64,000 nt of DNA, from the NCBI RefSeq assembly GCF_028826155.1, contig NZ_JAQGPN010000001.1, positions 2,857,501-2,921,500 of the forward strand, written 5' to 3'. Source of the DNA: Mesorhizobium shangrilense. Lineage in GTDB: Bacteria > Pseudomonadota > Alphaproteobacteria > Rhizobiales > Rhizobiaceae. The notes beneath the pieces were generated by a model. That model saw only the letters and a program-made list of their open reading frames with translations. It was not told where the DNA came from and searched no databases. Shown piece by piece: positions 16,340-36,269 of the stretch. The stretch's first letter is position 1; the number at the start of each line of letters is the position of its first letter. The position numbers and the translations under genes were made by a program.

Positions 16340-16416
16340 GGGGTCCTCAAATGCTTGGATGAAGTCACCCCGTCGGCCGCGCGGGGCCTGAGCGGGCGAA
16401 GGGAGGATGAAGGCTG

Positions 16417-17610: not shown

Positions 17611-17699
17611 GTCTCCTCCTCAGTCGCACGCCTTGCGGGGTCCGACCCGTCGCCAAAAACGCTGTTGCCTGCATTTTGAGACGAGAGTATCGTAATGAC

Positions 17700-18327: not shown

Positions 18328-18340
18328 CTGGTCCGACCAA
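18328..18340. promoter_or_regulatory. Candidate GntR operator, copy 1 (ABC operon)
   Basis: CTGGTCCGACCAA, reverse complement TTGGTCGGACCAG. This is one of four intergenic copies of TTGGTNNNACCAG in the window and matches the FadR-type half-site pattern TNGTNNNACNA. It starts two bases after the TetR stop and 361 bases before the transporter start. Confidence 0.55.
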
Positions 18341-18486
18341 AAGAATCCGCAGAGCCAATGCGTCAAGCGCCGTATGGCCTTGCTGCAATCGATTACCAAG
18401 CCCCTTCAGTGACATAGGATTCGGGCAGCCATCGCAAGCGACTGCAAGGAAATCCGGTAATGCGAATGTGTGAACAAGAAAGGCCC

Positions 18487-18516
18487 TTGACCATCTGCGA
18501 CAATTGGTAATACCAG
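18487..18516 (+). promoter_or_regulatory. Promoter with overlapping GntR operator, copy 2 (ABC operon)
   Basis: A -35-like TTGACC (18487-18492) is followed by the motif TTGGTAATACCAG (18504-18516), whose arms TGGT/ACCA are perfectly inverted. The motif covers the place where a -10 element is expected, so a bound regulator would block transcription. The same layout, TTGAC followed by the motif 12-13 bases later, recurs at 33664-33694. The long leader (about 180 bases) to the first gene holds no clear frame. Confidence 0.6.
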
Positions 18517-20113: not shown

Positions 20114-21019
20114 TTGGCCACTGCCGTCATGAGCACGCTGGACCCGAAGTCGCGCGCCGCGTCCCGCGGCATGAGCGACATCACGATCCGCAATCTCTTC
20201 ATCATTCCCACGATCCTCTTCCTGATCGTCTTCAACATCTTTCCGCTGATCTACTCGCTCGGCTATTCGTTCACCGACTTCCGCGCCAGCGGCAAGGCGG
20301 ACTGGAACTTCGTCGGCCTGCAGAACTACCGCGAGCTGCTCAACGACCCCTTCATCTGGTCGAACTTCTCGATCACGGCGAAGTACGTGATCGTCTCGGT
20401 GGTGGGCCAGGTCGTGGTCGGCTTCGGCACGGCCATGCTGCTCAACCGCGACATCCCCATGAAGGGACTGATCACGACGCTGCTGCTGCTGCCGATGATG
20501 CTCTCGATGGCGGTGGTGGGCCTGTTCTGGAAGCTGCTCTACGACCCGTCCTTCGGCATCATCAACTATGCGCTCGGGCTCGGCACATTCGAGTGGCTCT
20601 CCAACCCCGACATGGCGCTCTACGCGGTGGCGCTGACCGACATCTGGATGTGGTCGCCCTTCGTCATGCTCCTGTCGCTGGCCGGACTGTCGGCGGTGCC
20701 GAAGCATCTCTACGAGGCGGCCGCGATCGACCGGGCAGGGCCGCTCTACACCTTCTTCCGCATCACGCTGCCGCTGGTGGCGCCGATCCTGATGATCGCG
20801 ATCATCTTCAGGACCATGGAGGCGTTCAAGACGTTCGACCTCGCCTACATCCTGACAAGCCAGCCGACGACGGAGGTGATCTCGATCCGGCTGTACAAGA
20901 TGGCGTTCCAGGAATGGCAGACGGGACGCTCCTGCGCGCTCGCCTACATCGTGCTGATCATGGTGCTCGCCATCACCAACATCTACGTCAAATACCTGAA
21001 CAAGGTGAAGGAGCGCTGA
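20114..21019 (+). CDS. ABC transporter permease 1 (MalF type)
   Basis: A 301-aa inner-membrane permease with six membrane segments (first at about residues 28-48) and the EAA loop EAAAIDRAGPLYTFFRITLPLVAP that contacts the ATPase. The start is probably the TTG at 20114, seven bases after GGAGG; an in-frame ATG at 20129 is the alternative. The gene lies between the binding protein and the second permease, three bases before the latter. It is a CUT1-family component. Confidence 0.86.
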   Translation: MATAVMSTLDPKSRAASRGMSDITIRNLFIIPTILFLIVFNIFPLIYSLGYSFTDFRASGKADWNFVGLQNYRELLNDPFIWSNFSITAKYVIVSVVGQVVVGFGTAMLLNRDIPMKGLITTLLLLPMMLSMAVVGLFWKLLYDPSFGIINYALGLGTFEWLSNPDMALYAVALTDIWMWSPFVMLLSLAGLSAVPKHLYEAAAIDRAGPLYTFFRITLPLVAPILMIAIIFRTMEAFKTFDLAYILTSQPTTEVISIRLYKMAFQEWQTGRSCALAYIVLIMVLAITNIYVKYLNKVKER

Positions 21020-21022
21020 GCG

Positions 21023-21982
21023 ATGGCCGCCGTCCGCACATCGTCCGAAATCGCGCTCAACCGCATCGCGATCGCCGCCGTCATCGTGGTGACGCTGATC
21101 TTCCTGGCGCCGATCTACTGGATCACGGCAACTGCCTTCAAGCCGCGCAACCTGTCGACCACGATCCCGCCGACGATCGTCTTCACTCCGGAGATATCGC
21201 CGTTCGTCAAGCTCTTCACCAAGCGCTCGCAGCTCAGAAGCGAGCCGACGCCGGAAGAATATGCGGCCGCGCCGTGGTGGGAGCGCATGGTCTTCGACGG
21301 CGGCGAGAAGATCGTGCGCGACGGCAAGGGCAACGTGCAGCTGTCGGGCTATCCCAGCCGCTTCATGAACTCGCTGATCGTGGCGGTGACCTCGACCATC
21401 CTGGCGGTCGGCATGGGCACCTTCACCGCCTACGGCTTCTCGCGCTTCAAGGTGAAGGGGGAGGCGGACCTTCTCTTCTTCATCCTGTCGACCAGAATGC
21501 TGCCGCCGGTGGTCGTCGCGATCCCGATGTTCCTGATGTACCGGGTGGTTGGCCTCAACGACACGCACTGGGGCCTGATCATCCTCTACACAGCCTTCAA
21601 CCTGTCCTTCTCGGTCTGGCTGATGAAGGGCTTCATGGACGAGATCCCGAAGGAGTATGAGGAGGCGGCCCTCGTCGACGGCTACACGCGCATGCAGGCC
21701 TTCTTCAAGGTGGTGCTGCCGGAGGCCGCCACAGGCATCGCCGCGACCGCCGTGTTCTGCTTCATCACGGCGTGGAACGAGTACGCCTTCGCGCTGATCA
21801 TGACCAACCGGCGCGCGCAGACCGCACCGCCCTTCATCCCCAGCCAGGTCGGATCGGGCCTGCCGGACTGGACCGTGATCGCTGCCGGAACCTTCCTGTT
21901 CCTGCTTCCGGTCGCAATCTTCACCTTCCTCCTGCGCAAGCACCTGCTGCGCGGCGTGACCTTCGGAGCGATCCGCAAATGA
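21023..21982 (+). CDS. ABC transporter permease 2 (MalG type)
   Basis: A 319-aa permease with an N-terminal helix (ALNRIAIAAVIVVTLIFLAPI), a periplasmic insertion of about 75 residues (FVKLFTKRSQLRSEPTPEEY...), four to five further helices, and the EAA loop YEEAALVDGYTRMQAFFKVVLP. A large first periplasmic loop is common in transporters of the glycerol/sugar-alcohol type. It begins three bases after permease 1 and overlaps the next small gene by four bases (21979-21982). Confidence 0.86.
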   Translation: MAAVRTSSEIALNRIAIAAVIVVTLIFLAPIYWITATAFKPRNLSTTIPPTIVFTPEISPFVKLFTKRSQLRSEPTPEEYAAAPWWERMVFDGGEKIVRDGKGNVQLSGYPSRFMNSLIVAVTSTILAVGMGTFTAYGFSRFKVKGEADLLFFILSTRMLPPVVVAIPMFLMYRVVGLNDTHWGLIILYTAFNLSFSVWLMKGFMDEIPKEYEEAALVDGYTRMQAFFKVVLPEAATGIAATAVFCFITAWNEYAFALIMTNRRAQTAPPFIPSQVGSGLPDWTVIAAGTFLFLLPVAIFTFLLRKHLLRGVTFGAIRK

Positions 21983-22188
21983 TGCGCAGCGACACCCTGC
22001 AGCGGGTGGCCGAGATCGTCATGGTGCTGGGCATCGTGGCGCTCTGCCAGCCGTGGAACTTCTTCCTGCACCGATACGGGTTGACGATCATCCTGATCGG
22101 CCTGGTGACCTTCCTTCTGACCAACTGGTTCGGCTCGAAGGTGGTCACCGAGGACGACGACGTTTTGCCGGAAGAGGGCCGCCCATGA
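21979..22188 (+). CDS. Small two-helix membrane protein in ABC operon (69 aa)
   Basis: ATGATG at 21979 overlaps the permease stop by four bases, and its own stop overlaps the ATG of the first ATPase gene by four bases (22185-22188). The 69-aa product has two hydrophobic segments (about 8-28 and 33-52) and an acidic tail (VTEDDDVLPEEG). It is not a permease fragment that I recognise. The double coupling shows that it is translated with the transporter, and it may be an accessory subunit, as small membrane proteins are in glycerol-type ABC systems. Confidence 0.75.
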   Translation: MMRSDTLQRVAEIVMVLGIVALCQPWNFFLHRYGLTIILIGLVTFLLTNWFGSKVVTEDDDVLPEEGRP

Positions 22189-23294
22189 CCCAGATCGAGC
22201 TCAGGGGCGTCCAGAAGTTCTTCGGCGCGGTTCAGGTCATCCGGGACCTGAACCTGAAGATCGAGGACAACGAGTTTATCGTGCTGCTGGGCCAGTCCGG
22301 CTGCGGCAAAACCACCACGCTGCGCGCGATCGCCGGCCTGGAAACGGTCGACGAGGGGGACATCCTGATCGACGGCCAGCCGGTGCAGCACCTGAAGTGC
22401 TCGGACCGGGACATCGCCATGGTGTTCCAGTCGTTCTCGCTCTATCCGCACATGACCGTCTACGAGAACATCGCCTTCCCGCTGCGGGCGACGCGCATGA
22501 ACAAGGGCGAGGTCGACAAGGCGGTGGGGGAGATCGCAGGCGTGCTGCGCATCACCGACCTGCTGGCCAAGAAACCGTCCGCGTTGTCGGGCGGGGACAT
22601 GCAGCGGGTCGCCATTGGGCGCGCGCTCGTCAGGCGTCCGAAGGCGATGCTGATGGACGAGCCGATCGGCGCACTGGACGCCAAGCTGCGCGAGGAGATG
22701 CGCGCCGAGATCAAGCGCCTGCACCTGAAGCAGGGTTCCACCACGATCTACGTCACCCACGACCAGATCGAGGCGATGAGCCTCGCCGACCGCATCGTCA
22801 TCATGCACGAGGGCGTGCTGCAGCAGGTCGGCTCGCCGCAGGATGTCTATGCGCACCCGACCAACCTGTTCGTGGCGCAGTTCGTCGGCAGCCCGGTGAT
22901 GAACGTCGCAGACGCCACCGTGTCGGCGAACGGCAGCGGCGCCAAGGTGGCAATGGAGGGTTCGCAGGAGGGGTTCACCTTCCCGAACCAGCTGCTCGGC
23001 ATGCTCGACAGTGCCAACGGCGCCAACGGCAACCTGGCGCTGGGCATCCGCCCCGAGGGCGTGCTGGTCGCCAAGGAGGCGCTGTCCGGCTACCTGCCCG
23101 TCGAGGCCCACATCATCGAACCGCTCGGCTCCTACGACATCGTCGACCTCAAGGTGGGCTCGCAGATGCTGAGGGCGCGCACGCGCTCCGGCTTCGTTCC
23201 GCGCGCGGGCGACAAGGTCTGGGCGAGGATCGACCCCGCGCAGGCGCATTTCTTCGACAAGTTGAGCGGGAACTCGCTGGGGGTGAGGCTGTGA
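22185..23294 (+). CDS. ABC transporter ATP-binding protein 1
   Basis: A 369-aa MalK-type ATPase: Walker A GQSGCGKTT, Q loop FQSFSLYPHMTV, signature LSGGDMQRVAIGRALV, Walker B AMLMDEPIGALD and the switch His in VTHDQ. The signature has Asp where Gln is usual (LSGGQ). The C-terminal part (about 245-369) is the OB-type regulatory domain (GIRPEGVL). It is the first of two ATPases in the operon and is coupled to the small membrane protein gene by a four-base overlap. Confidence 0.9.
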   Translation: MTQIELRGVQKFFGAVQVIRDLNLKIEDNEFIVLLGQSGCGKTTTLRAIAGLETVDEGDILIDGQPVQHLKCSDRDIAMVFQSFSLYPHMTVYENIAFPLRATRMNKGEVDKAVGEIAGVLRITDLLAKKPSALSGGDMQRVAIGRALVRRPKAMLMDEPIGALDAKLREEMRAEIKRLHLKQGSTTIYVTHDQIEAMSLADRIVIMHEGVLQQVGSPQDVYAHPTNLFVAQFVGSPVMNVADATVSANGSGAKVAMEGSQEGFTFPNQLLGMLDSANGANGNLALGIRPEGVLVAKEALSGYLPVEAHIIEPLGSYDIVDLKVGSQMLRARTRSGFVPRAGDKVWARIDPAQAHFFDKLSGNSLGVRL

Positions 23295-23475: not shown

Positions 23476-24561
23476 ATGGCCCATATCCAGCTCAAGAACA
23501 TCACCAAGAAGTTCGGCAGCCACACGGCGCTGCGGAACCTCAGCCTGGACATCGCGGACGGCGAGTTCTTCGTCCTGCTCGGAGAGACAGGTGCGGGCAA
23601 GACGACGACGCTCAGGCTGATCGCCGGTCTCGAGAAGCCGACCGAGGGACAGGTCTATATCGACGGCGTCGACGTCGGCGACTGGGGGGCGGCCGAGCGC
23701 GACGTCGCGCTGGTGCTGCAGCAGTACTCGCTCTATCCGCGCTACACGGTGCGGGAGAACCTCGAGTTCCCGCTGAAGTCGAAACTCCGCCGCGTGCCCG
23801 ACGACGAGATCAAGGAGCGCGTCCTGCGTGTCGCCAGGACCCTGCGGATCGAGCACCTGCTGGATCGCAAGACGGACCGCCTCTCGGGCGGCGAGATGCA
23901 GCGCGTCTCGATCGGGCGTGCGATCGTGCGCAAGCCGCGCGTCTTCCTGATGGACGAGCCGCTGTCGGCGCTGGACGCCAAGCTGCGCGAGGCGCTGCGC
24001 ACGGAACTGAAGAACATCCAGATGAACCTCGGCCAGACCTTCCTGTTCGTCACGCACGACCAGGTGGAGGCGATGTCGATGGGCGACAAGGTCGGCGTGC
24101 TGAACCACGGCAGCCTGGTGCAGACCGGCACGCCGCAGGAGATCTACACGAACCCGCGCGACACCTTCGTCGCGAGTTTCGTCGGCTCCCCGCCGATGAA
24201 CCTGATCGACGGCAGGCTGGTCGGCGGCCGGGCGATGATGGCGCCGCTCAACTTCGAACTGCCCTATGCAGGGGCGGCCCCGGGCGGAGGCAATACGGAG
24301 GGGCGCCAGCTGGTGTTCGGAATCAGGCCCGAGGACCTGCAACTGGAGCCGGGCGCTCCGGTCGAGGCCAAGGTGCACGATGTCGAGAACCACGGCGTCG
24401 AGAAGATCGTGACGCTGCGCGTCGGCGATACGATGCTGCGCGCCACCGTGCCCGCCAACACCAACGTCGCGATCGAGGAAGCCGTGCGCTTCGCCTGGAA
24501 CGACACGAAGGTGCTGCTGTTCGACAAGGCGAGCGGGATCAGCCTGCGCCACGCAAGCTGA
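23476..24561 (+). CDS. ABC transporter ATP-binding protein 2
   Basis: A 361-aa MalK-type ATPase with Walker A GETGAGKTT, Q loop LQQYSLYPRYTV, signature LSGGEMQRVSIGRAIV, Walker B VFLMDEPLSALD and switch His (VTHDQVEAMSMGD), followed by the regulatory domain (FGIRPEDLQLEPG). It differs clearly from the first ATPase, so the pair probably forms a heterodimer rather than being a recent duplication. Two distinct ATPases with two permeases and a small membrane protein recall the GlpS/GlpT arrangement of rhizobial glycerol uptake. Followed at once by an IS remnant. Confidence 0.88.
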   Translation: MAHIQLKNITKKFGSHTALRNLSLDIADGEFFVLLGETGAGKTTTLRLIAGLEKPTEGQVYIDGVDVGDWGAAERDVALVLQQYSLYPRYTVRENLEFPLKSKLRRVPDDEIKERVLRVARTLRIEHLLDRKTDRLSGGEMQRVSIGRAIVRKPRVFLMDEPLSALDAKLREALRTELKNIQMNLGQTFLFVTHDQVEAMSMGDKVGVLNHGSLVQTGTPQEIYTNPRDTFVASFVGSPPMNLIDGRLVGGRAMMAPLNFELPYAGAAPGGGNTEGRQLVFGIRPEDLQLEPGAPVEAKVHDVENHGVEKIVTLRVGDTMLRATVPANTNVAIEEAVRFAWNDTKVLLFDKASGISLRHAS

Positions 24562-25599: not shown

Positions 25600-26030
25600 C
25601 GGGTGAGTTCGGCCTTGAGCGCAGGGCTCACGGTGGTGTTATTCGGGAGGTTGTTCCACAGTTCGGGATCGGTTTCCCGCGCGAAGTGGTTGAACCAGCC
25701 GATGACCCAGGGCGAACCCGGCGCGAAGGTCGCACCGCGAGCGGGAGACGCAAAGCCGTCGACGACAGGCATCTTGCCGAGTTGCTGGAAGCGGAAGATC
25801 CAGAAGCCGAGGATCGCATCGTATTGCGTGTCGCGCGGGGGCGGCAGCTGGTTGCCGTTTGCGATGCCGAACTTGGACACCTGCGGATGCCCCTGAGCCA
25901 TGATGAGGAGCAGCTTCATGAGCTCGATGTCGGTCGACCCGTTGGGGCAGTCCGATGAGGGACCGACACGGGCGGAAATATTCCAGAGAAAGGGCAGGGT
26001 TCCAGACATGAGTGGAAGACGTGCAGCCAT
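25596..26030 (-). CDS. Conserved-looking hypothetical protein (144 aa)
   Basis: ATG at 26028-26030 with GAGGGAGAACTCCT upstream opens a 144-residue frame starting MAARLPLMSGTLPFLWN. There is no signal peptide or strong membrane helix. The sequence is rich in aromatic residues and Pro (AILGFWIFRFQQLGKMPVVDG, ARETDPELWNNLPNNT). I do not recognise a domain. Its last bases overlap the end of the truncated dehydrogenase gene on the other strand. Good ribosome site and coding character support it; function unknown. Confidence 0.6.
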   Translation of the reverse strand: MAARLPLMSGTLPFLWNISARVGPSSDCPNGSTDIELMKLLLIMAQGHPQVSKFGIANGNQLPPPRDTQYDAILGFWIFRFQQLGKMPVVDGFASPARGATFAPGSPWVIGWFNHFARETDPELWNNLPNNTTVSPALKAELTR

Positions 26031-26203
26031 AGGAGTTCTCCCTCAACCGTGCACGTCGCCTTGTATCTGCTACGTTGCACGCTGCCGGACGCCGGCGCCT
26101 GTTGACTATCCGCCCGGAAAATCCTGAATTCAAGCGGGAGGAACGGCGCTGCTTGCCAGCGTTCGAAGAAGGGCGGGCCATCAACAAACACGGGACAGGA
26201 AAC

Positions 26204-27094
26204 ATGCCCAAGCGCATCGTGTTCACCGGCGGATCCGGCAAGGCGGGGCGGCACGTCGTGCCCTGGCTGAAGGAGCGCGGGGACTATGACATCCTCAACG
26301 TCGACCTGAAGCCGCTCGATTGTCCGGGCGTCAACACCCTCGTCGCCGACCTGACCGACAGCGGGCAGACCTTCAACGCGCTGTCCATGCATTTCGGCTT
26401 CGAGGGCTACGAGACGGCCGGGGGACCGAAGCCGGTCGACGCGGTCGTGCACTTCGCGGCCATACCGCGTGTCCTCATCCAGCCCGACAACGTCACCTTC
26501 CAGGCCAACGTGGTCTCCACCTACAACGTGATCGAGGCCGCGGTAAAACTCGGCATCCGCAAGATCGTGATCGCATCGAGCGAAACCACCTACGGGGTGT
26601 GCTTCGCGGAAGGCGACAAGGATTTTCACCACTTCCCCCTGGACGAGGACTATCCGATCGATCCGATGGACAGCTACGGACTGTCGAAGCAGGTCAACGA
26701 GCAGACGGCGCGGGCGTTCGCGGCGCGCTACGGGGCCGACATCTACCCGCTGCGCATCGGCAATGTGATCGAGCCACACGAGTATGGGCCGTTCAAGTCC
26801 TATGCCGCCAATCCGCCGGTGCGCAAGCGCAATGCCTGGAGCTACATCGATGCCCGCGACCTCGGCCAGATCGTGCATCTATGCCTGGAAAAGGACGGAC
26901 TGGGCTTCCAGGTGTTCAACGCCACCAACGACACGATCACCGCGAATGAGCCGACCGAGGCGTTCCTCAAGAGGTGGGCGCCGAGCACGCCGGTGACCCG
27001 GCGGATGGAAGGTTTTGAGGCGCCCCTCTCCAATCGCAAGATCAGGGAGGTGCTCGGCTTCAAGGAGGAGCACGATTGGCGGACGTACGTCTAG
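26204..27094 (+). CDS. NAD-dependent epimerase/dehydratase family protein
   Basis: A 296-aa extended SDR starting MPKRIVFTGGSGKAGRHVV, where GGSGKAG is the nucleotide loop and the Asp of LNVDLKPL favours NAD. Catalytic candidates are Ser-Ser in IASSETTYG and the YGLSKQ (Tyr-x-x-x-Lys) motif. The C-terminal region NRKIREVLGFKEEHDWRTYV is typical for nucleotide-sugar or uronate-type dehydrogenases/epimerases. ATG at 26204 follows ACAGGAAAC. It lies downstream of the ABC transporter and dehydrogenase remnant and may have belonged to that operon before the insertion (inference). Confidence 0.78.
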   Translation: MPKRIVFTGGSGKAGRHVVPWLKERGDYDILNVDLKPLDCPGVNTLVADLTDSGQTFNALSMHFGFEGYETAGGPKPVDAVVHFAAIPRVLIQPDNVTFQANVVSTYNVIEAAVKLGIRKIVIASSETTYGVCFAEGDKDFHHFPLDEDYPIDPMDSYGLSKQVNEQTARAFAARYGADIYPLRIGNVIEPHEYGPFKSYAANPPVRKRNAWSYIDARDLGQIVHLCLEKDGLGFQVFNATNDTITANEPTEAFLKRWAPSTPVTRRMEGFEAPLSNRKIREVLGFKEEHDWRTYV

Positions 27095-27155
27095 CGGAAG
27101 GTGGTGTTGAGGAGACAAGGGGCAACCCAGAATTAGGATTGCCCCCCGGCGACGG

Positions 27156-28298
27156 CTACGCCGCCGAAGGAAACTGGAGCCCCTCGGCGACAGTCCTGTT
27201 GCGGCCGGCGCGCTTGGCCGCATAGAGCATCTGGTCGGCGCGATCCACGGCGATCCAGATCTCCTCACCCGGGCGATGCTCCGCGACGCCGAAGCTGGCG
27301 GTGATCCGCTCCGGCTGCTTAACATCCCAGAACGCTGCCTCCTGGAGGCGCCTGCGCAGGCGTTCGGCAATCAGGAAAGCTTCCTTGCGCGGAGTGGAGC
27401 CGAGGAGAAGGACGAACTCCTCGCCACCGATGCGGGCCACGAGGTCCCCCGCGCGGCTTTCCTTCCTCAGGATGTCGGAGAAGGCCGAGATGACTTCGTC
27501 GCCGGCAGCGTGTCCGTGGACGTCGTTGATGCGCTTGAAGTTGTCGATGTCGCAGGCAACGATGGTCAGCGGTCTGGCTCGTCGGTCCTGCAGCAGGGTG
27601 CGGGCATGTTCCTCGAAGGCCCGGCGGTTGAGCAGGCCGGACAGCGGATCGGCATCGCGTTCGGTACGCAACCGCGCCAGCGTGTCGAGCGTGACCGCCG
27701 CAAGCAGCGTCAGCGCCATCGCGGCCCCGGCAATGGACACGGTGAACTGGAGGCCGAGCCAGAAGGGCGACGTGGCGAAGGTATCGAGATCGTCGACCAG
27801 TGCGTCAATGGTGATCCAACTGCGCGGGATGAAATGCAGTCCCAGGGCGAGGGCGCTCCAGAACACGGCGCGGTCAATGAGGTCTCCCCGAGACAGCTTC
27901 CACAGCCGTAGCGCAGCGGTGGCGACGATCGCCCCGAAGCCGCCATTGATGATGTAGATGCGGGCGACTACATCCCGGTCGACATAATAGTAATAGGCGA
28001 TGCCCCCCACGATCGCGACGAACACGACAGCGTTGTACCAGGCTGGCATTTTCAGTCCGGAGCGCCGCAGCAGCCCTTCGGAGAGGCTGATTGCGCCGCT
28101 TATGTAGAGCATCGCCGAGACCACCGCGTTTACGCCGAGCTCGGCAGGCCACAGGGCGACCTGGACGCCGAGCCCCAGGCCTGACAGCAGGAAACCGGCG
28201 CCGAACAGCGCCACATGGTGTGGCGAGCGCGTGATGCGCCAGAAGGCCAGGAAGCCGCAGCCGAACACTAAAAGGAGGATTGGAGGAACAAAGATCAT
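27156..28298 (-). CDS. Membrane-bound diguanylate cyclase (GGDEF)
   Basis: A 380-aa protein with about six membrane helices in the first 210 residues and a C-terminal GGDEF domain. The catalytic signature is RIGGEEFVLLL (GGEEF form, active in many enzymes), the substrate-binding DIDNFKRINDVHGHAAGD is intact, and RAGD five residues before GGEEF is a proper inhibitory I-site. The protein should make c-di-GMP in response to a signal sensed by its membrane part, with product inhibition. Single minus-strand gene. Confidence 0.88.
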   Translation of the reverse strand: MIFVPPILLLVFGCGFLAFWRITRSPHHVALFGAGFLLSGLGLGVQVALWPAELGVNAVVSAMLYISGAISLSEGLLRRSGLKMPAWYNAVVFVAIVGGIAYYYYVDRDVVARIYIINGGFGAIVATAALRLWKLSRGDLIDRAVFWSALALGLHFIPRSWITIDALVDDLDTFATSPFWLGLQFTVSIAGAAMALTLLAAVTLDTLARLRTERDADPLSGLLNRRAFEEHARTLLQDRRARPLTIVACDIDNFKRINDVHGHAAGDEVISAFSDILRKESRAGDLVARIGGEEFVLLLGSTPRKEAFLIAERLRRRLQEAAFWDVKQPERITASFGVAEHRPGEEIWIAVDRADQMLYAAKRAGRNRTVAEGLQFPSAA

Positions 28299-28399
28299 GA
28301 TATGCGGCGTGCCTGCACCGGCTGGTCCGGGTTCATGGCCCTGAGATCATAAAAGAATCGGTAATGCGAAATGCGTACATCGGCGGCCTGAGCCCAGGA

Positions 28400-29497
28400 T
28401 CAGGCAGCCTTCTCCCATTTTCGGGAAAGGAAGGCGGCACGTTGGAATTGCGGTGCGACCGTGATGTCCCGACCCAGCGCCGCGGCTGCCCGCCACGGCC
28501 ACCGGGGGTCGGCAAGCAGCGCCCGCCCCAGCGCAATGAAGTCGGCCCGCCCCTGCGCGACGATGTCGTTTGCCTGATGCGGCTCGTCGATCATGCCGAC
28601 GGCGCGGACGGGGATGTCGACCCGCTGCCTCACATATTCGGCGAGGTGGACCTGATAGCCCGGTCCGGTCGGAATCTGTTGGAGAGGCGAGTTGCCGCCG
28701 CTCGAGCAGCAGACGTAGCTGACGCCCTCTGCCTGCAAGGCCTTCACGACCTCGACCGTTTCGTGCTCGACGAGGCCGCCGTCCACCCAGTCCTTCACTG
28801 ACAGGCGCGCGCCGAGCATCAGCCCGGGCGCCGTCCTGCGCACTTCGCGTGCCACCTCCACCGCGAAGCGCATGCGGTTGTCGAGCGATCCACCCCAGTC
28901 GTCGGTGCGGTGGTTCGAGAGGGGCGAGAGGAACTGGTGGATGAGGTAACCGTGCGCCGCGTGCAACTCGATGAAGTCGAAACCTGCGCGTTCGGCCCGG
29001 CGAGCCGCCTCGCCGAATTTTTCGATGATGTCGCGGATGCCGGTTTCGGTCAGCGCCTGGGGCGTCTGCCATCCGGCGTCGAACGGAATCGCGGAAGCGG
29101 AGACGGTCTGCCACGGGTCCTGGCCGGACTGCAGGGGGGCGCCGCCTTCCCAAGGCCTCGTGCACGAAGCCTTGCGCCCGGCATGCGCGAGCTGCGTGCC
29201 GAACCACGTGCCCGGATTGGCGACGCGCCGAGCTGCAATCAAGGTGCGCTTGGCGGCGTCCTCGTTGGCGTCGGAATAGAGACCGAGGCAGCCATGGCTG
29301 ATGCGGCCGCGCCGCTCGACGTCAGTCATCTCCACGGTGACCATCGCCGCGCCCGACATGGCGAAATTCATCCAGTGATAAAGGTGCCAGACGCTGGCCG
29401 AGCCGTCATCGGCGGAATACTGGCACATCGGCGCGACCGCGATGCGGTTCTTGAACTCTAGCGTACCGATGGAGATCGGCGAAAACAGATCAGTCAT
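28400..29497 (-). CDS. NADH:flavin oxidoreductase, old yellow enzyme family (YqjM-like)
   Basis: A 365-aa FMN-dependent TIM barrel starting MTDLFSPISIGTLEFKNRI. The motifs VAPMCQYSADDG (YqjM-type Cys near the flavin), QLAHAGRKA, FIELHAAHGYLIHQFLSPLSNHRTDDWGGSLDNR and GRALLADPRWP are all typical. The enzyme reduces activated C=C bonds using NAD(P)H. The ATG at 29495-29497 has GGAGACCCG before it. A perfect 15-base palindrome lies 36 bases upstream and may be an operator. The gene follows the hydroxyacid dehydrogenase with a gap of 108 bases and may be separately controlled. Confidence 0.86.
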   Translation of the reverse strand: MTDLFSPISIGTLEFKNRIAVAPMCQYSADDGSASVWHLYHWMNFAMSGAAMVTVEMTDVERRGRISHGCLGLYSDANEDAAKRTLIAARRVANPGTWFGTQLAHAGRKASCTRPWEGGAPLQSGQDPWQTVSASAIPFDAGWQTPQALTETGIRDIIEKFGEAARRAERAGFDFIELHAAHGYLIHQFLSPLSNHRTDDWGGSLDNRMRFAVEVAREVRRTAPGLMLGARLSVKDWVDGGLVEHETVEVVKALQAEGVSYVCCSSGGNSPLQQIPTGPGYQVHLAEYVRQRVDIPVRAVGMIDEPHQANDIVAQGRADFIALGRALLADPRWPWRAAAALGRDITVAPQFQRAAFLSRKWEKAA

Positions 29498-29605: not shown

Positions 29606-30619
29606 CTAGGCCGGAAACCGCTTGCGATAGCGCTCCACAACCTCGGGGTTACACAGGTTGACGGGGAGACGACCAGCGAGGACACGCAGCGTTTCCTCAG
29701 CAGCGCCAATTCCCATCCGCAACATGCTGTTTTCCGTGATGCCGGCCATGTGCGGCGTCACGATGACGTTGTCGAAGCAAAAATAAGGATGATCGGGCGG
29801 CAGCGGTTGCGTCGGGAAGACGTCGAGCGCCGCGCCGCCGACGCGTTTCGCGCGTAGCGCCTCGATCAGGGCGTCGTCGTCGATGACCGGTCCGCGGGAT
29901 ACGTTCACCAAAACCGCATGGGACTTCATCATGGCGATGCGCTCGCGGCTGATCAGCCCGGTGGTCTCCGGGGTGAGGGGGCAGCACAACACGACGATGT
30001 CCGCCTCGGAAACGAGTTCGTTGACGGTGACGAAGCGTGCGCCGTCCGGCAGGCTTTCCGGCCGGCGGCTGTTCGCGATCACCTCGAGGCCGAAGCCGTT
30101 CCTCGCAATGTGCGCGACGTTGGTTCCGACATTGCCCATGCCGACGATGCCCATGGTCTTGCCGGTCAGGTCTGCGCCGGAATTGGAGTGCTCCCGCGCG
30201 ACCAGCCAGCCCCGCGAGCGCAGGTCGCCATCTACCTGCCGGAAACGCCTCAGCAAGGCGATCGACGCGAAGATGACATGCTCGGCGACGGTGCGTGCAT
30301 TGACGCCGGGCACATTGGCGACCAGCACGCCAGCCTCGGTTGCGGCATCGACGGGGATCATGTCCAGCCCGGCGCCGTGCCGGACCGCCGCGCGCAGCCG
30401 CGGCGCACCGTCGAACAGGGACGGCGGCAACGGCGCTCGCACGATGACGATATCCGCCTCACGACCTTCGCGACCGAGAGTGGCAGTGTCGAGAGAGGAG
30501 GCGACGACCAGGCGGCCGGCGCCGGCAAGCCGTTGCTGCGCGAGCGGGTGCAGCGGATGGGTCGAGAAGATCAGCGGCTCAGGCATGCTGAAGCGGGCGT
30601 CCGGGATCGACGTCGTCAT
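29606..30619 (-). CDS. D-isomer 2-hydroxyacid dehydrogenase family protein
   Basis: A 337-aa protein with the NAD-binding loop GIVGMGNVGTNVA, catalytic Arg in VNVSRGPVID and catalytic His in VTPHMAG. The usual catalytic Glu of the DVFxxEP motif is Gln here (LDVFPTQPLPPDHPYF). The start at 30617-30619 has GAGAAG before it and overlaps the end of the GntR gene by about 40 bases; an ATG at 30586 has no good ribosome site. Last gene of the four-gene minus-strand operon. The substrate is probably a sugar-derived 2-hydroxy or 2-keto acid. Confidence 0.82.
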   Translation of the reverse strand: MTTSIPDARFSMPEPLIFSTHPLHPLAQQRLAGAGRLVVASSLDTATLGREGREADIVIVRAPLPPSLFDGAPRLRAAVRHGAGLDMIPVDAATEAGVLVANVPGVNARTVAEHVIFASIALLRRFRQVDGDLRSRGWLVAREHSNSGADLTGKTMGIVGMGNVGTNVAHIARNGFGLEVIANSRRPESLPDGARFVTVNELVSEADIVVLCCPLTPETTGLISRERIAMMKSHAVLVNVSRGPVIDDDALIEALRAKRVGGAALDVFPTQPLPPDHPYFCFDNVIVTPHMAGITENSMLRMGIGAAEETLRVLAGRLPVNLCNPEVVERYRKRFPA

Positions 30620-31298
30620 CGTTCTTCTCGATGAGCCCCTTCCAGTAGCTCTCCACACCCTGCAGGTGCGCGCTCATCAGCGCCTGGGCGAGGTTGCCGT
30701 CGCGCCGCTGCAGGGCTTCGAAGATCTGCACGTGTTCGGCGTGCGAGCGCCGGCAGCGCTCCGGATCGTTGAAGTAGATCGGCACGCGATCCTCGCCCAT
30801 CACGTAGTAGACGCTGCAGATGCGGTGGAACACGCTGTTCTGCGTAGCGCGTACGATCTCAAGGTGAAAATCGCGGTCTTCCTGGGCGAGGCCCTCGCCG
30901 GCAGCGATGCGCTCCTCCGAGGCCTGCAGGATCTCGCGCAGCCGGTCGTAGTTTTCTTCCGTCGCCCGGGAGCATGCGAGTTCCGCCGCCTTGATCTCGT
31001 GGATCTTCCTCAGTTCGACCATCTCGTAGATCTGGATCGGATCGAGCGGCACGCCGGCCTTGGCGAAGAGAGCCATGGCCTCCACGCTGGCCTGGCGCGT
31101 GGTCAGGTAGATTCCCGACTTCGCGCGGCGTTCGACGATCCGCATCGCTTCCAGGATCGCCAGCGCCTCGCGAATCTGGCCGCGGGACACTGCAAAATGT
31201 TCGGCAAGCTCGCGCTCGGACGGCATCCTGCCGCTTTCCGTCTTGGAGCAGGAGAACAGGTGAAAGGCCAGTTCGGCCAGCAGATTCTTCTCGGTCAT
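30579..31298 (-). CDS. GntR family regulator, FadR subfamily
   Basis: A 239-aa regulator with an N-terminal winged helix (RMPSERELAEHFAVSRGQIREALAILE is its core, residues about 24-50, with GIYLTTR closing the wing) and an all-helical FCD domain whose metal/ligand residues include EDRDFHLEIVRAT and the C-terminal HAEHVQIFEAL..AQALMSAHLQ. FadR-type proteins bind TNGTNNNACNA-like operators; four copies of TTGGTNNNACCAG flank this operon and the ABC operon. It lies between the enolase-superfamily gene (11 bases) and the dehydrogenase gene (overlap), so it is made with the pathway it probably controls, with a sugar-acid-like inducer expected. Confidence 0.88.
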   Translation of the reverse strand: MTEKNLLAELAFHLFSCSKTESGRMPSERELAEHFAVSRGQIREALAILEAMRIVERRAKSGIYLTTRQASVEAMALFAKAGVPLDPIQIYEMVELRKIHEIKAAELACSRATEENYDRLREILQASEERIAAGEGLAQEDRDFHLEIVRATQNSVFHRICSVYYVMGEDRVPIYFNDPERCRRSHAEHVQIFEALQRRDGNLAQALMSAHLQGVESYWKGLIEKNDDDVDPGRPLQHA

Positions 31299-31309
31299 GG
31301 GGACATGCC

Positions 31310-32482
31310 CTAAACCTTCACTGCATGCGCCTTCAAGAAGCTTTCCGAGACAGTGACACCAAGTCCCGGACGGTCGGGTATAGCAATCGTGCCGCAGCCC
31401 AGGTCCACATCTTCCTCAACCAGATCGTGCAGCATGGGATTCGCGCCAAGCGAGTACTCTATGATGAAGCTGGCAGGCGAAGCGGCGCAGACATGCAGGC
31501 CGGCATAAAAGGCCGGCGCGCCGGCCCACAGGTGGGGGGCGAGCCTCAGGTTGAAGGCTGACGCGATCGCTGAAATCCGCATCGCCTCCGTGATGCCGCC
31601 GCAGAAGGCAAGGTCCGGCTGGAAAATGTCGGCCGCCTTCAGCACCGCCATGTCGCGGAAGTCGAATCGCGTGGTCTCGCTTTCGCCGGCGGCGATCGGA
31701 ATGGTAGAGCCCGCCCGAACTTCGGCCATGCCTGACTTGTCGTCTCCGATCACGGGTTCCTCGAACCAGGCGAGGTTCTGATCCTCGACGAGGCGCGCGA
31801 AACGCTTTGCGTCGGCCACCGTGAAAGTGCCGTGGGCGTCGACCATCAGCTCGACATCGGGACCAACGGCGGCGCGAGCTGCGCGGACGCGCGCGGCTGA
31901 CACGTGCGGGGCGGCGTCCATCGCGCCGACCCTCATCTTCACCGCCCTAAAGCCCCCTTTCTCGATGTAGCCGAGCAATTGCTGGCCGATCGTCTCGGCG
32001 TTCGCCCAGCCGCCGGAGGCGTAGGCCCTCATGCGCTCCGCCTTGCGCCCTCCGAGCAGGCGCCAGACCGGTTGGTCGAGCGATTTTCCGAAAATGTCCC
32101 AAAGCGCAAGGTCGACGGCGCTGATCGCGGCGAGCGACAGGCCGCGGCGCGAAAGCTGCGGCATGGCATGGCCAGACGCCGACGCCGCGCGATGCCGCAC
32201 GCCATTATAAAGGAGCTCCCAGATGTCGTTGATGTCGCGCGGATCGCGGCCGATCAGCTGCGGCGCGACTTCGTGATTCAGCAGGTGGACCAGCGCCCCG
32301 TAGGCGCCGGCGCTGCCGGCGGCATTCTTGCCTTCCCCCCAGCCGACGATGCCGTCGTCCGTTTCGACGCGCAGGATCGCCGCATCGAAGGTCGTCACCT
32401 GCCCGAAGTCGCTTCGGTGCTGATTGGCCTCGGTGATGGGTATGCGGACCCACCAGGCTTCGACACGCTTTATCTTCATCAT
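31310..32482 (-). CDS. Mandelate racemase/muconate lactonizing family enzyme (enolase superfamily)
   Basis: A 390-aa enolase-superfamily protein. The capping domain begins MMKIKRVEAWWVRIP. In the barrel are KMR on strand 2 (AVKMRVG, a KxR form of the KxK motif), metal ligands Asp in MVDAHGTF, Glu in WFEEPV and Glu in AGESETT, and a His in LAPHLWAG that with Asp of FQPDLAF may form the base dyad of the mandelate racemase subgroup. Such enzymes usually dehydrate or epimerise sugar acids. Two adjacent start codons (32482, 32479); GAGG upstream favours the second slightly. Preceded by a 10-bp hairpin and followed by the GntR gene. Confidence 0.85.
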   Translation of the reverse strand: MMKIKRVEAWWVRIPITEANQHRSDFGQVTTFDAAILRVETDDGIVGWGEGKNAAGSAGAYGALVHLLNHEVAPQLIGRDPRDINDIWELLYNGVRHRAASASGHAMPQLSRRGLSLAAISAVDLALWDIFGKSLDQPVWRLLGGRKAERMRAYASGGWANAETIGQQLLGYIEKGGFRAVKMRVGAMDAAPHVSAARVRAARAAVGPDVELMVDAHGTFTVADAKRFARLVEDQNLAWFEEPVIGDDKSGMAEVRAGSTIPIAAGESETTRFDFRDMAVLKAADIFQPDLAFCGGITEAMRISAIASAFNLRLAPHLWAGAPAFYAGLHVCAASPASFIIEYSLGANPMLHDLVEEDVDLGCGTIAIPDRPGLGVTVSESFLKAHAVKV

Positions 32483-32535: not shown

Positions 32536-33423
32536 CTACTTGATGAGCGGCAGCAGCGTTTCGGCCGTGATGCGCATCTGGTCGGTGTAGAATTTTTCGG
32601 TGAGCACGCTGGATCCGTGATCCTGGATGAACTTCAGCTGCTCCGGGGAAATGTCGACCGGATTGCGCTCCACCATCTCTGGATAGCGCGCGGCCGGCGT
32701 GCGATCGACCGGCGCGACGAACTCGTTGGTCAGCGCGCCGTCATAGCCGATGTCCTTGAGGGTTTTTACGATGGCTTTCCAGTCGATGGTGCCGAGGCCC
32801 GCCGCGAAACGGTTGTTGTCGGCCACATGGAAGTCGAAGAGCCGCTTGCCGGCCTTGCGGATCGCCTCGTGGACGTCGAACTCCTCCATATGCAGGTGAT
32901 AGGCGTCGAGGCAGACGCCGCATTCCGGGCTCACCGCGTCGGCCAGCGCCAAGGCCTGCTCGCCGCGGTTGAACAGGTAGGTCTCGAAGCGGTTCAAGGG
33001 CTCCACTGCGATCTTCACGCCGACCTTCTTGGCGTGGCCGAAGCATTCACGCGTGGCGTCGACGACCCATTTCCACTCTTCTTCCTCGGTTCCGTCGGGG
33101 ACGACCTTGCCGACGGTGGCCGGCACCAGCGTGATGATCTCGCCGTCCAGCTCGCTCACCATCGTCAGCACGTCCTTGACGTACTGGACCGAGCGCTCGC
33201 GCTGGCCCTGGTCCTTTGCGGCGAGATTGCGCTCGCCGAGCATCAGCGTCACCGCGCCCCAGCAGCGAATGCCGTGCTCCTTCAGCAGCGCGCGCGTCTC
33301 CTTGGGCTTGTACTGCTCGGGCTCCCCCGAAATCTCGATCGACTCGTAGCCGAATTTCTTGATGCGCTTGAGCGTGGTTTCCAAGGGCTCCGCACGCATC
33401 CAGTTGTGCGTCGAAAGATGCAT
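32536..33423 (-). CDS. Sugar isomerase/epimerase, TIM barrel (D-tagatose 3-epimerase-like)
   Basis: A 295-aa AP-endonuclease-2-fold barrel starting MHLSTHNWMRAEPLE after AGGAGGACGAATT. The four metal ligands of ketose 3-epimerases can be matched: Glu in IAVEPLNRFE, Asp in GVCLDAYHLHMEE, His in FDFHVADNNR and Glu in LTNEFV. The Arg of DNNR is also conserved. It probably epimerises or isomerises a keto sugar or keto sugar acid. First gene of the minus-strand operon, with a GntR operator about 80 bases upstream. Confidence 0.82.
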   Translation of the reverse strand: MHLSTHNWMRAEPLETTLKRIKKFGYESIEISGEPEQYKPKETRALLKEHGIRCWGAVTLMLGERNLAAKDQGQRERSVQYVKDVLTMVSELDGEIITLVPATVGKVVPDGTEEEEWKWVVDATRECFGHAKKVGVKIAVEPLNRFETYLFNRGEQALALADAVSPECGVCLDAYHLHMEEFDVHEAIRKAGKRLFDFHVADNNRFAAGLGTIDWKAIVKTLKDIGYDGALTNEFVAPVDRTPAARYPEMVERNPVDISPEQLKFIQDHGSSVLTEKFYTDQMRITAETLLPLIK

Positions 33424-33501
33424 AATTCGTCCTCCTCGCGTTCGCTTGATCCTCGCTCCGTCGCTCTGGAGGAGGCCTCCTCCCCAATGGTGGAACACGA
33501 A

Positions 33502-33514
33502 CTGGTTCGACCAA
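33502..33514. promoter_or_regulatory. Candidate GntR operator, copy 3 (minus-strand operon)
   Basis: CTGGTTCGACCAA, reverse complement TTGGTCGAACCAG, lies 79 bases upstream of the isomerase start at 33423. It fits TTGGTNNNACCAG at every fixed position. Because the divergent operon starts at 33898, the site may serve both directions, but its position favours the minus-strand promoter. Confidence 0.6.
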
Positions 33515-33663
33515 TTGGGCTCGTTCCGACTTCTAACGGATTTCCACAATGGTCGCAAGCAGGTGAGAAGCGATGCAGGAGCAGATAGCTATATGCCTGA
33601 AATCAAAGATAAAAATCATGCAGCTATCAGCGGGTCGCTCAGGTGGCGGCCTCGCCGGAGCCC

Positions 33664-33694
33664 TTGACGTTTCCAATGTTCTTGGTCATACCAG
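33664..33694 (+). promoter_or_regulatory. Promoter with overlapping GntR operator, copy 4 (plus-strand operon)
   Basis: A -35-like TTGACG (33664-33669) is followed by TTGGTCATACCAG (33682-33694), which overlaps the expected -10 position, as at 18487-18516. The site is about 200 bases before the ATG at 33898. The rest of the 474-base divergent region has no credible frame. Confidence 0.6.
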
Positions 33695-33897: not shown

Positions 33898-34956
33898 ATG
33901 GCAACCACAATCAAGGGGCCGGCGGTTTTCCTGGCCCAGTTCGCCGGTGACGCGGCGCCGTTCAACTCACTGCCCTCCATCGCCAAATGGGCGGCCGGGC
34001 TGGGCTACAAGGGCATCCAGATCCCGACCTGGGATGGCAGGCTGTTCGACCTCAAGAAGGCGGCAAGCTCCAAGACCTACTGCGACGAGGTGAAGGGGAT
34101 CTGCGCTGACGCCGGCGTCGAGATCACCGAACTGTCCACCCACCTGCAGGGCCAGCTCGTGGCCGTGCATCCGGCCTACGATGCGCAGTTCGATGGGTTC
34201 GCGCCGGCGGAGGTCCACAACAATCCCAAGGCGCGCCAGAAATGGGCGGTCGAGCAGATGAAGCTCAGCGCCAAGGCGTCGAAGAATCTCGGGCTGAAGG
34301 CGTCGGTGACGTTCAGCGGGGCGCTGGCCTTTCCCTATCTGTATCCTTGGCCGCAACGGCCTGCGGGCCTGATCGAGGAGGCATTCGCAGAGCTTGGCAA
34401 GCGCTGGAAGCCGATCCTGGACGCCTATGATGACGCCGGCGTCGATGTCGGCTACGAAATCCATCCGGGCGAGGACGTTTTCGACGGCGCCACCTTCGAG
34501 ATGTTCCTGGACGCTGTCGGCGGCCATCCGCGCTGCGCGATCAACTACGATCCGTCGCATTTCCTGCTGCAGCAGCTCGACTATCTCGCCTTCATCGACA
34601 TCTACCACGAGCGCATAAAGGCCTTTCACGTGAAGGACGCCGAGTTCAACCCGGATGGCAGGCAGGGCGTCTATTCCGGCTACCAGGGCTGGGTGAACCG
34701 GGCAGGGCGGTTCCGCTCGCTGGGCGACGGCCAGGTCGATTTCGGCGGCATCTTCTCGAAGCTCTCCGCCTACGGCTACGACAGCTGGGCCGTGCTGGAA
34801 TGGGAGTGCTGCCTGAAGCATCCGGAGGATGGGGCCGCCGAAGGCGCCCCCTTCATCCAGCATCACATCATCCGTGTTACCGAGAAGGCGTTCGACGATT
34901 TCGCCGGCGGGACAACGGACAAGAAGATGCTGCGGGCGATGATGGGAATAGGATGA
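33898..34956 (+). CDS. Sugar phosphate isomerase/epimerase family protein, long form
   Basis: A 352-aa TIM-barrel protein of the AP-endonuclease-2 fold preceded by GGAGGAGGAGCTTC. Likely metal ligands are Glu in VGYEIHPGED, Asp in NYDPSHFLLQQLDY, His in KAFHVKDAEF and Glu in VLEWECC. It is longer than simple epimerases, with an extra loop around QGVYSGYQGWVNRAGRF. Proteins of this type next to Gfo/Idh/MocA dehydrogenases act on inositols or, in newer work, cleave 3-keto-glycosides. It is the first gene of the plus-strand operon and is divergent from the other isomerase. Confidence 0.82.
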   Translation: MATTIKGPAVFLAQFAGDAAPFNSLPSIAKWAAGLGYKGIQIPTWDGRLFDLKKAASSKTYCDEVKGICADAGVEITELSTHLQGQLVAVHPAYDAQFDGFAPAEVHNNPKARQKWAVEQMKLSAKASKNLGLKASVTFSGALAFPYLYPWPQRPAGLIEEAFAELGKRWKPILDAYDDAGVDVGYEIHPGEDVFDGATFEMFLDAVGGHPRCAINYDPSHFLLQQLDYLAFIDIYHERIKAFHVKDAEFNPDGRQGVYSGYQGWVNRAGRFRSLGDGQVDFGGIFSKLSAYGYDSWAVLEWECCLKHPEDGAAEGAPFIQHHIIRVTEKAFDDFAGGTTDKKMLRAMMGIG

Positions 34957-35062: not shown

Positions 35063-35081
35063 TATCGGTTGGAGAAACAAA

Positions 35082-36269
35082 ATGGTCAGCGGCAGGCAGG
35101 TTGAATCCGGGAGCGGGCCGATCCGCTACGGCATGGTAGGCGGCGGGCAGGGCGCCTTCATCGGCGGGGTACACCGTATCGCCGCCCGGATGGACGGCGA
35201 GTTCCAGCTGGTTGCGGGCGCATTGTCGTCCAGCCCCGAAAAGGCGAAGGCTTCGGCCGCCGAACTCGGCCTCGATTCCGAACGCAGCTACGGGTCCTTC
35301 CAGGAAATGGCGAAGGCGGAGGCGAAACGCCCCGACGGGATCGAGGCGGTCGCCATCGTGACGCCGAACCACATGCACTATCCGGCCGCCAGGGCGTTCC
35401 TGGAGGCAGGCATCCACGTCATCTGCGACAAGCCGCTGACCTCAAATCTCGCTGACGCGAAGAAGCTTGCCGCCCTTGCCGAGAAGTCCGGCAAAGTGTT
35501 CGTTCTGACGCACAACTACACTGGCTATCCGATGGTCCGCCAGGCGCGCGAGATGGTTTTCAAGGGCCAGCTCGGCGATATCCGCGTCGTTCAGGCCGAA
35601 TACCCGCAGGACTGGTTGACCGAACCCATCGAGCAGTCGGGCCAGAAGCAGGCGTCATGGCGGACGGATCCGAAGCAGTCCGGCGTTGGCGGGTCGACCG
35701 GCGACATCGGCACGCATGCCTACAACCTCGCGCGCTTCGTCACCGGACTGGAACTCGACAGCCTTTCGGCCGACCTCGATTCGTTCGTGGCTGGCCGACT
35801 GCTGGACGACAACGCTCACGTGATGCTGCGCTTCAAGTCGAAGAAGAACGAGCCGCCGGCCAAGGGCATGATTTGGGCTAGCCAGGTGGCGCCCGGACAT
35901 GAGAACGGCCTGAAGCTGCGCGTCTACGGGACGAAGGGGGGCATCGAGTGGGTGCAGGCGGATCCGAACTATCTCTGGTTCACGCCGTTCGGCCAGCCCA
36001 AGCAACTGATCACCCGGGCCGGCGCCGGGGCAGGCGCAGCGGCGTCTCGGGTGACCCGCGTGCCGTCCGGCCATCCCGAGGGCTATCTGGAAGGCTTTGC
36101 CAACATCTACCAGGAAGCGGCGCGCGCCATACGTGCCGCCCGCAGGAAAGTCCCAAAGCCGCCGAAGGACGTGCTTTTTCCGACTGTCCAGGATGGTGTG
36201 GAAGGCGTCGCCTTCGTCGAGGCCTGCGTACGGTCCTCGAAGAAGAACGCGGCCTGGACGAAGCTTTAG
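35082..36269 (+). CDS. Gfo/Idh/MocA family oxidoreductase
   Basis: A 395-aa NAD(P)-dependent dehydrogenase starting MVSGRQVESG after TTGGAGAAACAAA. It has the nucleotide loop GMVGGGQGAFIGG, the TPNHMHYPAARAFLEAG strand, the catalytic Lys in CDKPLTSN (DKP in place of EKP), and the GDIGTHAYNLA motif with catalytic Asp and His. The family oxidises hydroxyls of sugars, inositols or glycosides, often at C3. Second gene of the plus-strand operon. Confidence 0.87.
   Translation: MVSGRQVESGSGPIRYGMVGGGQGAFIGGVHRIAARMDGEFQLVAGALSSSPEKAKASAAELGLDSERSYGSFQEMAKAEAKRPDGIEAVAIVTPNHMHYPAARAFLEAGIHVICDKPLTSNLADAKKLAALAEKSGKVFVLTHNYTGYPMVRQAREMVFKGQLGDIRVVQAEYPQDWLTEPIEQSGQKQASWRTDPKQSGVGGSTGDIGTHAYNLARFVTGLELDSLSADLDSFVAGRLLDDNAHVMLRFKSKKNEPPAKGMIWASQVAPGHENGLKLRVYGTKGGIEWVQADPNYLWFTPFGQPKQLITRAGAGAGAAASRVTRVPSGHPEGYLEGFANIYQEAARAIRAARRKVPKPPKDVLFPTVQDGVEGVAFVEACVRSSKKNAAWTKL

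Follow-up and report, generated by a model that had tools for sequence, protein, structure and literature searches.

Genes and motif sites of the window

We analysed a 64-kb stretch of the Mesorhizobium shangrilense genome, referred to here as the window, with genes assigned by Pfam unless stated otherwise. The leftward operon (minus strand) begins with SPI1, a TIM-barrel sugar isomerase/epimerase (32536–33423; Pfam AP_endonuc_2), and continues with MR, an enolase-superfamily protein and probable sugar-acid dehydratase (31310–32479; Pfam MR_MLE), a FadR-type GntR/FCD regulator (30579–31298; Pfam GntR and FCD, orthologs, conserved residues) and a D-2-hydroxyacid dehydrogenase (29606–30583), which follows the regulator gene in nearly all loci compared. 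The divergent, rightward operon (plus strand) comprises SPI2, also a TIM-barrel sugar isomerase/epimerase (33898–34956), and then a Gfo/Idh/MocA dehydrogenase, here called Gfo (35079–36269). The transporter operon, also on the plus strand, encodes an ABC transporter solute-binding protein (18702–20012), two permeases (20114–21982; the first by Pfam, the second by position and conserved order), a small conserved protein without a Pfam match (21985–22188; conserved order) and two ATPases (22185–23294 and 23476–24561; Pfam and NCBIfam). A TetR-type regulator gene precedes it (17694–18326, plus strand; Pfam and conserved order). The second permease gene appeared as two overlapping match pieces in one S. 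meliloti strain, where it is absent from the gene table (L218:16188–17143); it is listed in some other strains.

The best NCBIfam model for MR was galactonate dehydratase, with a score below its cutoff, and neither the regulator nor any operon enzyme tested reached a curated NCBIfam cutoff. Judging from the dehydratase family, the substrate may be a sugar acid or a related compound. Two neighbouring stretches of the window differ in how regularly they accompany these operons. UPF0261 (Tm-1-like) and PEP-hydrolase-like genes (15509–17610) diverge from tetR and neighbour the regulon in many relatives, and in R. leguminosarum a cupin gene and then an M24 peptidase gene come after them (L236:20578–24290). 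No GntR-type site above the threshold used was found in the tetR–UPF0261 gap of the window. Epimerase and old-yellow-enzyme genes (26198–29497) lie between the transporter and the regulator operon and are rarely there in relatives: among the loci compared, the old-yellow-enzyme gene occupied this place only in L041/L106, L047 and L051, and the epimerase gene only in L041/L106. In another genome (G080, locus L314) these two genes adjoin a DJ-1 gene instead.

The motif TTGGTNNNACCAG matched the window four times, with no fifth match, at 18328–18340 (minus strand), 18504–18516 (plus), 33502–33514 (minus) and 33682–33694 (plus), exactly where a sequence-only reading had located it. That reading had also placed all four sites between genes, which was borne out once one gene start had been corrected: 33502–33514 lies inside the longest mechanical open reading frame (32536–33558), and the ortholog-aligned ATG at 33423 puts the site 78 bp upstream of SPI1. 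The sites form two like-arranged pairs, each with the reverse copy on the left and the forward copy on the right, spaced 176 bp before the binding-protein gene (18328/18504) and 180 bp in the SPI1–SPI2 gap (33502/33682). A near match with one mismatch, GTGGTTGAACCAG, was seen at 25686–25698, about 500 bp before the epimerase gene.

An expected count well below one in 64 kb had been put forward for this motif, and 100 shuffles of the window agreed (mean 0.04 matches to TTGGTNNNACCAG, none reaching four). Genome-wide, the same figure loses its force as proof. Across the 5,545,526 bases in 5 contigs we counted 7 exact matches to TTGGTNNNACCAG versus 6 for the reversed control, and 18 matches to the wider motif YTGGTNNNACCAR versus 20. 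Since these counts are about those of the control, rarity of the motif alone proves little, and we discarded rarity as an argument for function. The unusual feature is the pairing rather than the count: with 18 sites placed at random, simple arithmetic predicts about 0.01 pairs within 200 bp in the whole genome. It is pairing together with conservation that singles the motif out.

Conservation of the two site pairs

To describe the SPI1 region in relatives, we took 95 loci with an aligned SPI1 start, which yielded 84 distinct regions, and scored them for a strict core (TGGT-N3-ACCA). Two strict cores were present in 80 of the 84, at a spacing of exactly 180 bp in 57 of these 80 pairs. In the remaining four regions a single strict core was accompanied by a weak partner, 176, 177, 177 and 139 bp away, with scores of 12.0–15.5 versus 15.6 for the weakest training site. 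S. meliloti and R. leguminosarum, which are outside the 84, likewise had one strict core with a weak partner, at 165 and 176 bp respectively. From 76 of the 84 sequences we built a weighted footprint, omitting 7 distant ones and 1 short one; conservation in it was 0.95 at 33502–33514 and 0.87 at 33682–33694, and 0.39 in the DNA between them.

The same footprint contained promoter-like blocks, which we assigned by reference to CTTGAC-N17-CTATAT, which we take to be the rhizobial promoter consensus. On the SPI2-Gfo side, a conserved CTTGAC block (33663–33668, plus strand) is the predicted −35 element; its first base lies 19 bp before the SPI2-side site, which would therefore cover the −10 position. 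Conserved CTTGC and TAGA blocks point towards SPI1, and are contained in a predicted −35 element CTTGCG (33554–33559, minus strand) and a predicted −10 element TTAGAA (33531–33536, minus strand), so that the other site would lie just past the start point of the SPI1-MR-GntR-dehydrogenase operon.

At the transporter, matches to the binding-protein gene with at least 67% identity came from 33 genomes of the 151 in the family, M. shangrilense included. The 700 bp upstream held one or more strict cores in all 32 of the other orthologs, and two in 27 of the 32; in the other five, a weak second site was found at 169, 169, 171, 171 and 184 bp (scores 12.0–17.5, where the weakest training site at 15.6 again serves as reference). 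By contrast, a strict core within 1 kb was found in none of the 27 paralogs examined (43–65% identity), out of 44 paralog matches at 42–65% identity, one of which is a second copy at 65%. The transporter footprint (30 sequences, 3 of the 33 left out) showed strong noncoding blocks at the distal site (18328–18340; 0.81), at the proximal site (18504–18516; 0.97), at a fully conserved CTTGAC that we predict to be the −35 element (18486–18491, plus strand; 1.0) and at the ribosome-binding region, while the DNA between the sites scored 0.30. The proximal site would overlap the −10 position of this promoter. The tetR stop codon ends at 18326, two bases ahead of the start of the distal site, and the footprint shows no promoter-like block at that site, which implies that its role would be exerted at a distance or against read-through.

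In both intergenic regions the sites were among the best-conserved bases, the reverse of the loss in relatives that the sequence-only reading had named as grounds for giving it up. Of the genome and the relatives that it had proposed to survey, the genome showed no enrichment of the motif and the relatives showed conservation. We also considered that the sites might be chance matches of a common GntR-family pattern, an idea to which the near-control genome counts and two unconserved sites near other ABC transporters (below) lend something. Set against the conservation, the pairing and the contrast between orthologs and paralogs, it is hardly credible, and for the four window sites a chance origin is refuted by their conservation.

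The candidate regulator and its proposed regulon

A FadR-type regulator had been recognised within one of these operons, and both of its domains were matched: the GntR winged helix (PF00392; 45.2 bits, cutoff 27) and the FCD domain (PF07729; 89.2 bits, cutoff 24.3). Residues D141, H145, H189, H211 and R97 were conserved in at least 99% of 87 distinct orthologs and invariant in 31. The aspartate and three histidines, with R97, presumably belong to an FCD pocket that depends on a metal and accommodates a small carboxylate. By sequence, the nearest structures were 7xp0 and NanR, joined by PdhR when a profile was used. The nearest NCBIfam models were NanR, LldR, UxuR, ExuR, GlcC and PdhR, all far below their curated cutoffs; the best of them, NanR, gave 96.8 bits against a cutoff of 260, which places the regulator outside these equivalogs or subfamilies. 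The E. coli proteins of these names control other genes. TKGT/ACMA sites with a 3-nt gap lie near the regulator's own operon, as would be expected for the FadR type within the FCD group, and the earlier recognition of the motif as FadR-like agrees with the published FadR-subfamily consensus, TKGT/ACMA with boxes usually 3 nt apart (PMC4494728).

We next compared distributions among the 151 family genomes. The regulator (E value at most 1 × 10−40) was found in 34, SPI1 in 35 and the transporter protein (at least 67% identity) in 33, and these are nearly the same genomes. One genome (G089) has SPI1 and the transporter, with no regulator found in its assembly, and two (G043 and G134) have the regulator without a transporter ortholog in assemblies that are 76% and 85% complete. 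The named relatives are mostly Mesorhizobium and also include Aquibium, Chelativorans, Pseudaminobacter and others. The transporter had been described as distant from the regulator operon. This is true of the window and of several other genomes, in which the transporter has kept the motif though separated from the regulator by tens of kilobases or placed on a different contig; in many relatives, however, it adjoins the regulator operon. On S. meliloti pSymA and a R. leguminosarum plasmid, the regulator operon, an isomerase gene that we call SPIx, the transporter, a tetR-type gene, the UPF0261 group and the M24 gene are side by side (in pSymA of strain 1021, the stretch from regulator to binding protein spans 731–739 kb). 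SPI2 and Gfo are not in those two stretches.

At the level of the order, the regulator was found in 11 of 347 genomes, of which three lie outside the family. Two of these three, members of other families (58–59% identity), have kept the SPI1 site pair, with spacings of 139 and 127 bp. The ABC transporter next to it in these two loci (L228 and L229) is a different one (about 40% identity for the ATPase and permeases, 27–29% for the binding protein), which looks like a replacement of the transporter under an unchanged regulator.

These distributions bear on which protein binds the sites. The genome encodes 23 FCD proteins, so another of them could bind, all the more as the family shares this type of consensus (PMC4494728), and TetR adjoins one of the two pairs. 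Yet the pair stays with SPI1 and the GntR gene in the two genomes of other families, with no TetR match found in the locus, the distribution of the GntR gene nearly equals that of the motif-bearing genes, and the motif has the FadR-subfamily form. We consider binding by a different FCD-family regulator or by TetR improbable.

Our main reading, to which we assign a probability of about 0.87, is that the GntR/FCD regulator encoded at 30579–31298 governs the regulon through these sites, with binding predicted from sequence. The sequence-only reading had proposed one regulator for its own operon, the SPI2-Gfo operon and the transporter, and the computed conservation, co-occurrence and ortholog/paralog contrast support that proposal. 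The four sites would be operators of a probable repressor, released by a sugar-acid-like intermediate, that controls three operons: its own (SPI1-MR-GntR-dehydrogenase), the divergent SPI2-Gfo operon and that of the transporter. The operator begins 18–19 bp after the first base of the conserved CTTGAC at the SPI2 and transporter promoters, where it would occupy the −10 element; at the SPI1 promoter it would sit just after the predicted start point.

The regulon may extend beyond the window. Three of the 18 wider-motif sites precede genes whose orthologs are part of the cluster in other genomes: SPIx (C1:4600755, directly before the aligned start with its first base at −30), the M24 peptidase gene (C1:2290852) and a DJ-1/PfpI gene (C1:461925). 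In Aquibium carbonis all three genes share one locus with the regulator and the transporter; same-cluster orthologs of all three occur in Aquibium and R. leguminosarum, and of SPIx and M24 also in S. meliloti. SPIx was found in 34 of the 151 genomes, 33 of them within the 35-genome SPI1-bearing set. The M24 gene occurs throughout that set of 35 and in 36 genomes overall. DJ-1 was found in 47, some outside the set. We then searched the best 30 loci for each gene for a strict core within 500 bp, finding one in 18 of 30 for SPIx and 19 of 30 for M24; for DJ-1, the core was present in 12 of the 24 loci in the SPI1-bearing set versus 0 of the 6 outside.

Operon position accounts for some of the loci in this search. 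Of the 18 SPIx loci with a core, 12 have the gene detached, with a site of its own, and in 6 it occupies the divergent slot next to SPI1; there the core belongs to the pair already counted. Among the 12 without a core, 6 SPIx genes follow Gfo in the SPI2 operon, 5 have a same-strand ABC ATPase gene upstream and 1 is unclear. Of the 11 M24 loci without a core, 4 follow a cupin gene and 7 are unexplained by operon position; for the 12 such DJ-1 loci of the set, 2 follow another cluster gene and 10 are unexplained in this way. As many relatives have no motif there and operon position explains only part of this, the three extra units are less certain than those of the window. They probably belong to the regulon, under the same regulator and with a single site each. 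The description of a four-site regulon fits the window; the genome total is probably larger, at seven sites by our count.

Two further sites, each beside another ABC transporter, were rejected as members: within 500 bp upstream, the motif was found in 0 of 12 loci from 11 SPI1-bearing genomes for C1:4170183 and in 0 of 4 loci for C1:2271252. These may be sites of other FCD regulators, or chance. Of the remaining wider-motif sites outside the window, those at C1:260023, 881962 and 3182500 are intergenic or doubtful, and the rest are intragenic.

Spacing of the predicted operators and known regulators

The constancy of the inter-site spacing is a feature absent from the sequence-only reading. 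We measured it in 67 loci with an SPI2 ortholog, giving 51 distinct combinations, in which the inter-site distance was 139–181 bp over intergenic lengths of 338–1244 bp. For 48 of the 51 combinations the slope was 0.004 (R2 0.03), that is, distance was independent of intergenic length, and it stayed the same across 338–599 bp of intergenic DNA; inclusion of the 3 short-spaced combinations gave −0.034 (R2 0.84), an effect of distant relatives, whose gaps are long. Such independence is the feature by which co-operative double sites in divergons have been recognised (PMC4494728), and the SPI1/SPI2 region shows it. When the inter-site DNA was clustered, 35 of the 54 clusters had a spacing of exactly 180 bp, and the standard deviation of the spacing was 2.3 bp (50 clusters above 165 bp) versus 10 for the leader length. 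Ungapped identity between equal-length inter-site stretches went down to 0.20, with a median of 0.43.

At the transporter the spacing was 174–179 bp in 16 of 28 pairs, and the rest include 153–170 bp, 99 bp (one genome) and 65 bp. The 65-bp spacing (two genomes, L115 and L116), as opposed to about 176 bp, is a natural short-spacing variant. The two gaps of the window were no more alike than shuffled DNA (identity 0.514 versus 0.519), which leaves visible common descent of both promoter gaps unsupported as the cause of their equal spacing; an old, since-diverged duplication may lie behind it.

Constant spacing, diverged inter-site DNA and dissimilar window gaps together speak for a constraint on geometry, of which a loop joining two dimers would be one form. 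The partner operator, about 176–180 bp away, would probably let two regulator dimers hold the DNA in this way, and we rate a DNA loop joining the paired operators as somewhat better than an even bet. This is weakened by the spacings of 127–156 bp at SPI1 in distant relatives and of 65 and 99 bp at the transporter.

The same regulator might also act without a loop, with each operator of the divergent pair serving the promoter beside it and the distal transporter site, just past tetR, blocking read-through from tetR into the transporter operon. Each SPI-side operator does have its own conserved promoter-like elements, the distal transporter site is directly at the end of tetR, and Rayleigh tests of the spacings gave no sign of helical phasing (p 0.17 to 1.0, with few independent spacings). 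Among FadR-subfamily divergons with a regulator gene, moreover, independent double sites outnumber the co-operative class, 71 versus 29 (PMC4494728). What such a mechanism accounts for less readily is a distance held close to 180 bp despite varying leader and intergenic lengths and an inter-site identity that drops to 20%, and a similar distance at most transporter promoters, the two gaps of the window being no more alike than shuffled sequence. We regard action without a loop as a tentative possibility, appreciably short of even odds. A broader form of the looped reading, which we place just under an even chance, is that the FadR-type regulator acts mainly via a standard loop of about 17 helical turns at two unlinked promoters of one genome, and has held on to a hitherto undescribed sugar pathway of rhizobia after the genes were scattered. 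The pathway would comprise three TIM-barrel isomerases, an acid-sugar dehydratase, two dehydrogenases, the transporter, M24 and DJ-1, and its scattered genes would often have kept or gained their own operator.

Among the papers listed in literature searches, which covered mainly non-subscription papers and in part used presumed S. meliloti gene tags, we found no description of the regulon or of its S. meliloti genes. Three tags that we do not equate with this cluster or its regulator came up: SMa1354, listed as "Isomerase" among changed genes (PMC12542648), SMa1344, whose mutant had normal symbiosis (PMC3462710), and SMa0222, for which a regulon is named (PMC11387232). The analysis ties together an unnamed pathway across many Mesorhizobium genomes and the plasmids of Sinorhizobium meliloti (pSymA) and Rhizobium leguminosarum, and provides it with a candidate regulator and a set of genes for testing. 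The natural series of operator pairs, from 65 to 190 bp, also allows direct measurement of spacing and looping by an FCD regulator.

Among known systems, E. coli DgoR controls a gene set that differs from the one here, and no DgoR model was among the NCBIfam matches listed for our regulator. The resemblance lies in a FadR-type protein that represses a sugar-acid pathway and in a promoter bearing two inverted repeats (PMC7674646). Closer in arrangement is Atu1419 of Agrobacterium fabrum, a VanR-type FCD regulator of the GntR superfamily described as a tetramer that binds two palindromes about 190 bp apart, with looping proposed (PMC7797058). Like the present case, it is a Rhizobiaceae FCD regulator with a palindrome pair between divergent genes, one of them over a −10 box; unlike it, it recognises the palindrome ATGTATACAT and belongs to another subfamily and another pathway (PMC7797058). 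None of the PDB matches of our regulator was labelled Atu1419. The FadR-subfamily double-site divergons of Suvorova et al. 2015 share the TKGT/ACMA palindromes, in which GT and AC are mostly 3 nt apart, and include a class with constant inter-site distance that was interpreted as co-operative; the main text names none of the rhizobial genera that we looked for (PMC4494728). The present system differs from those divergons in that a pair is also found at a non-divergent promoter, that of the transporter. The FadR-type switch itself is familiar, and the paired-operator sugar regulon is a new, well-supported example of it.
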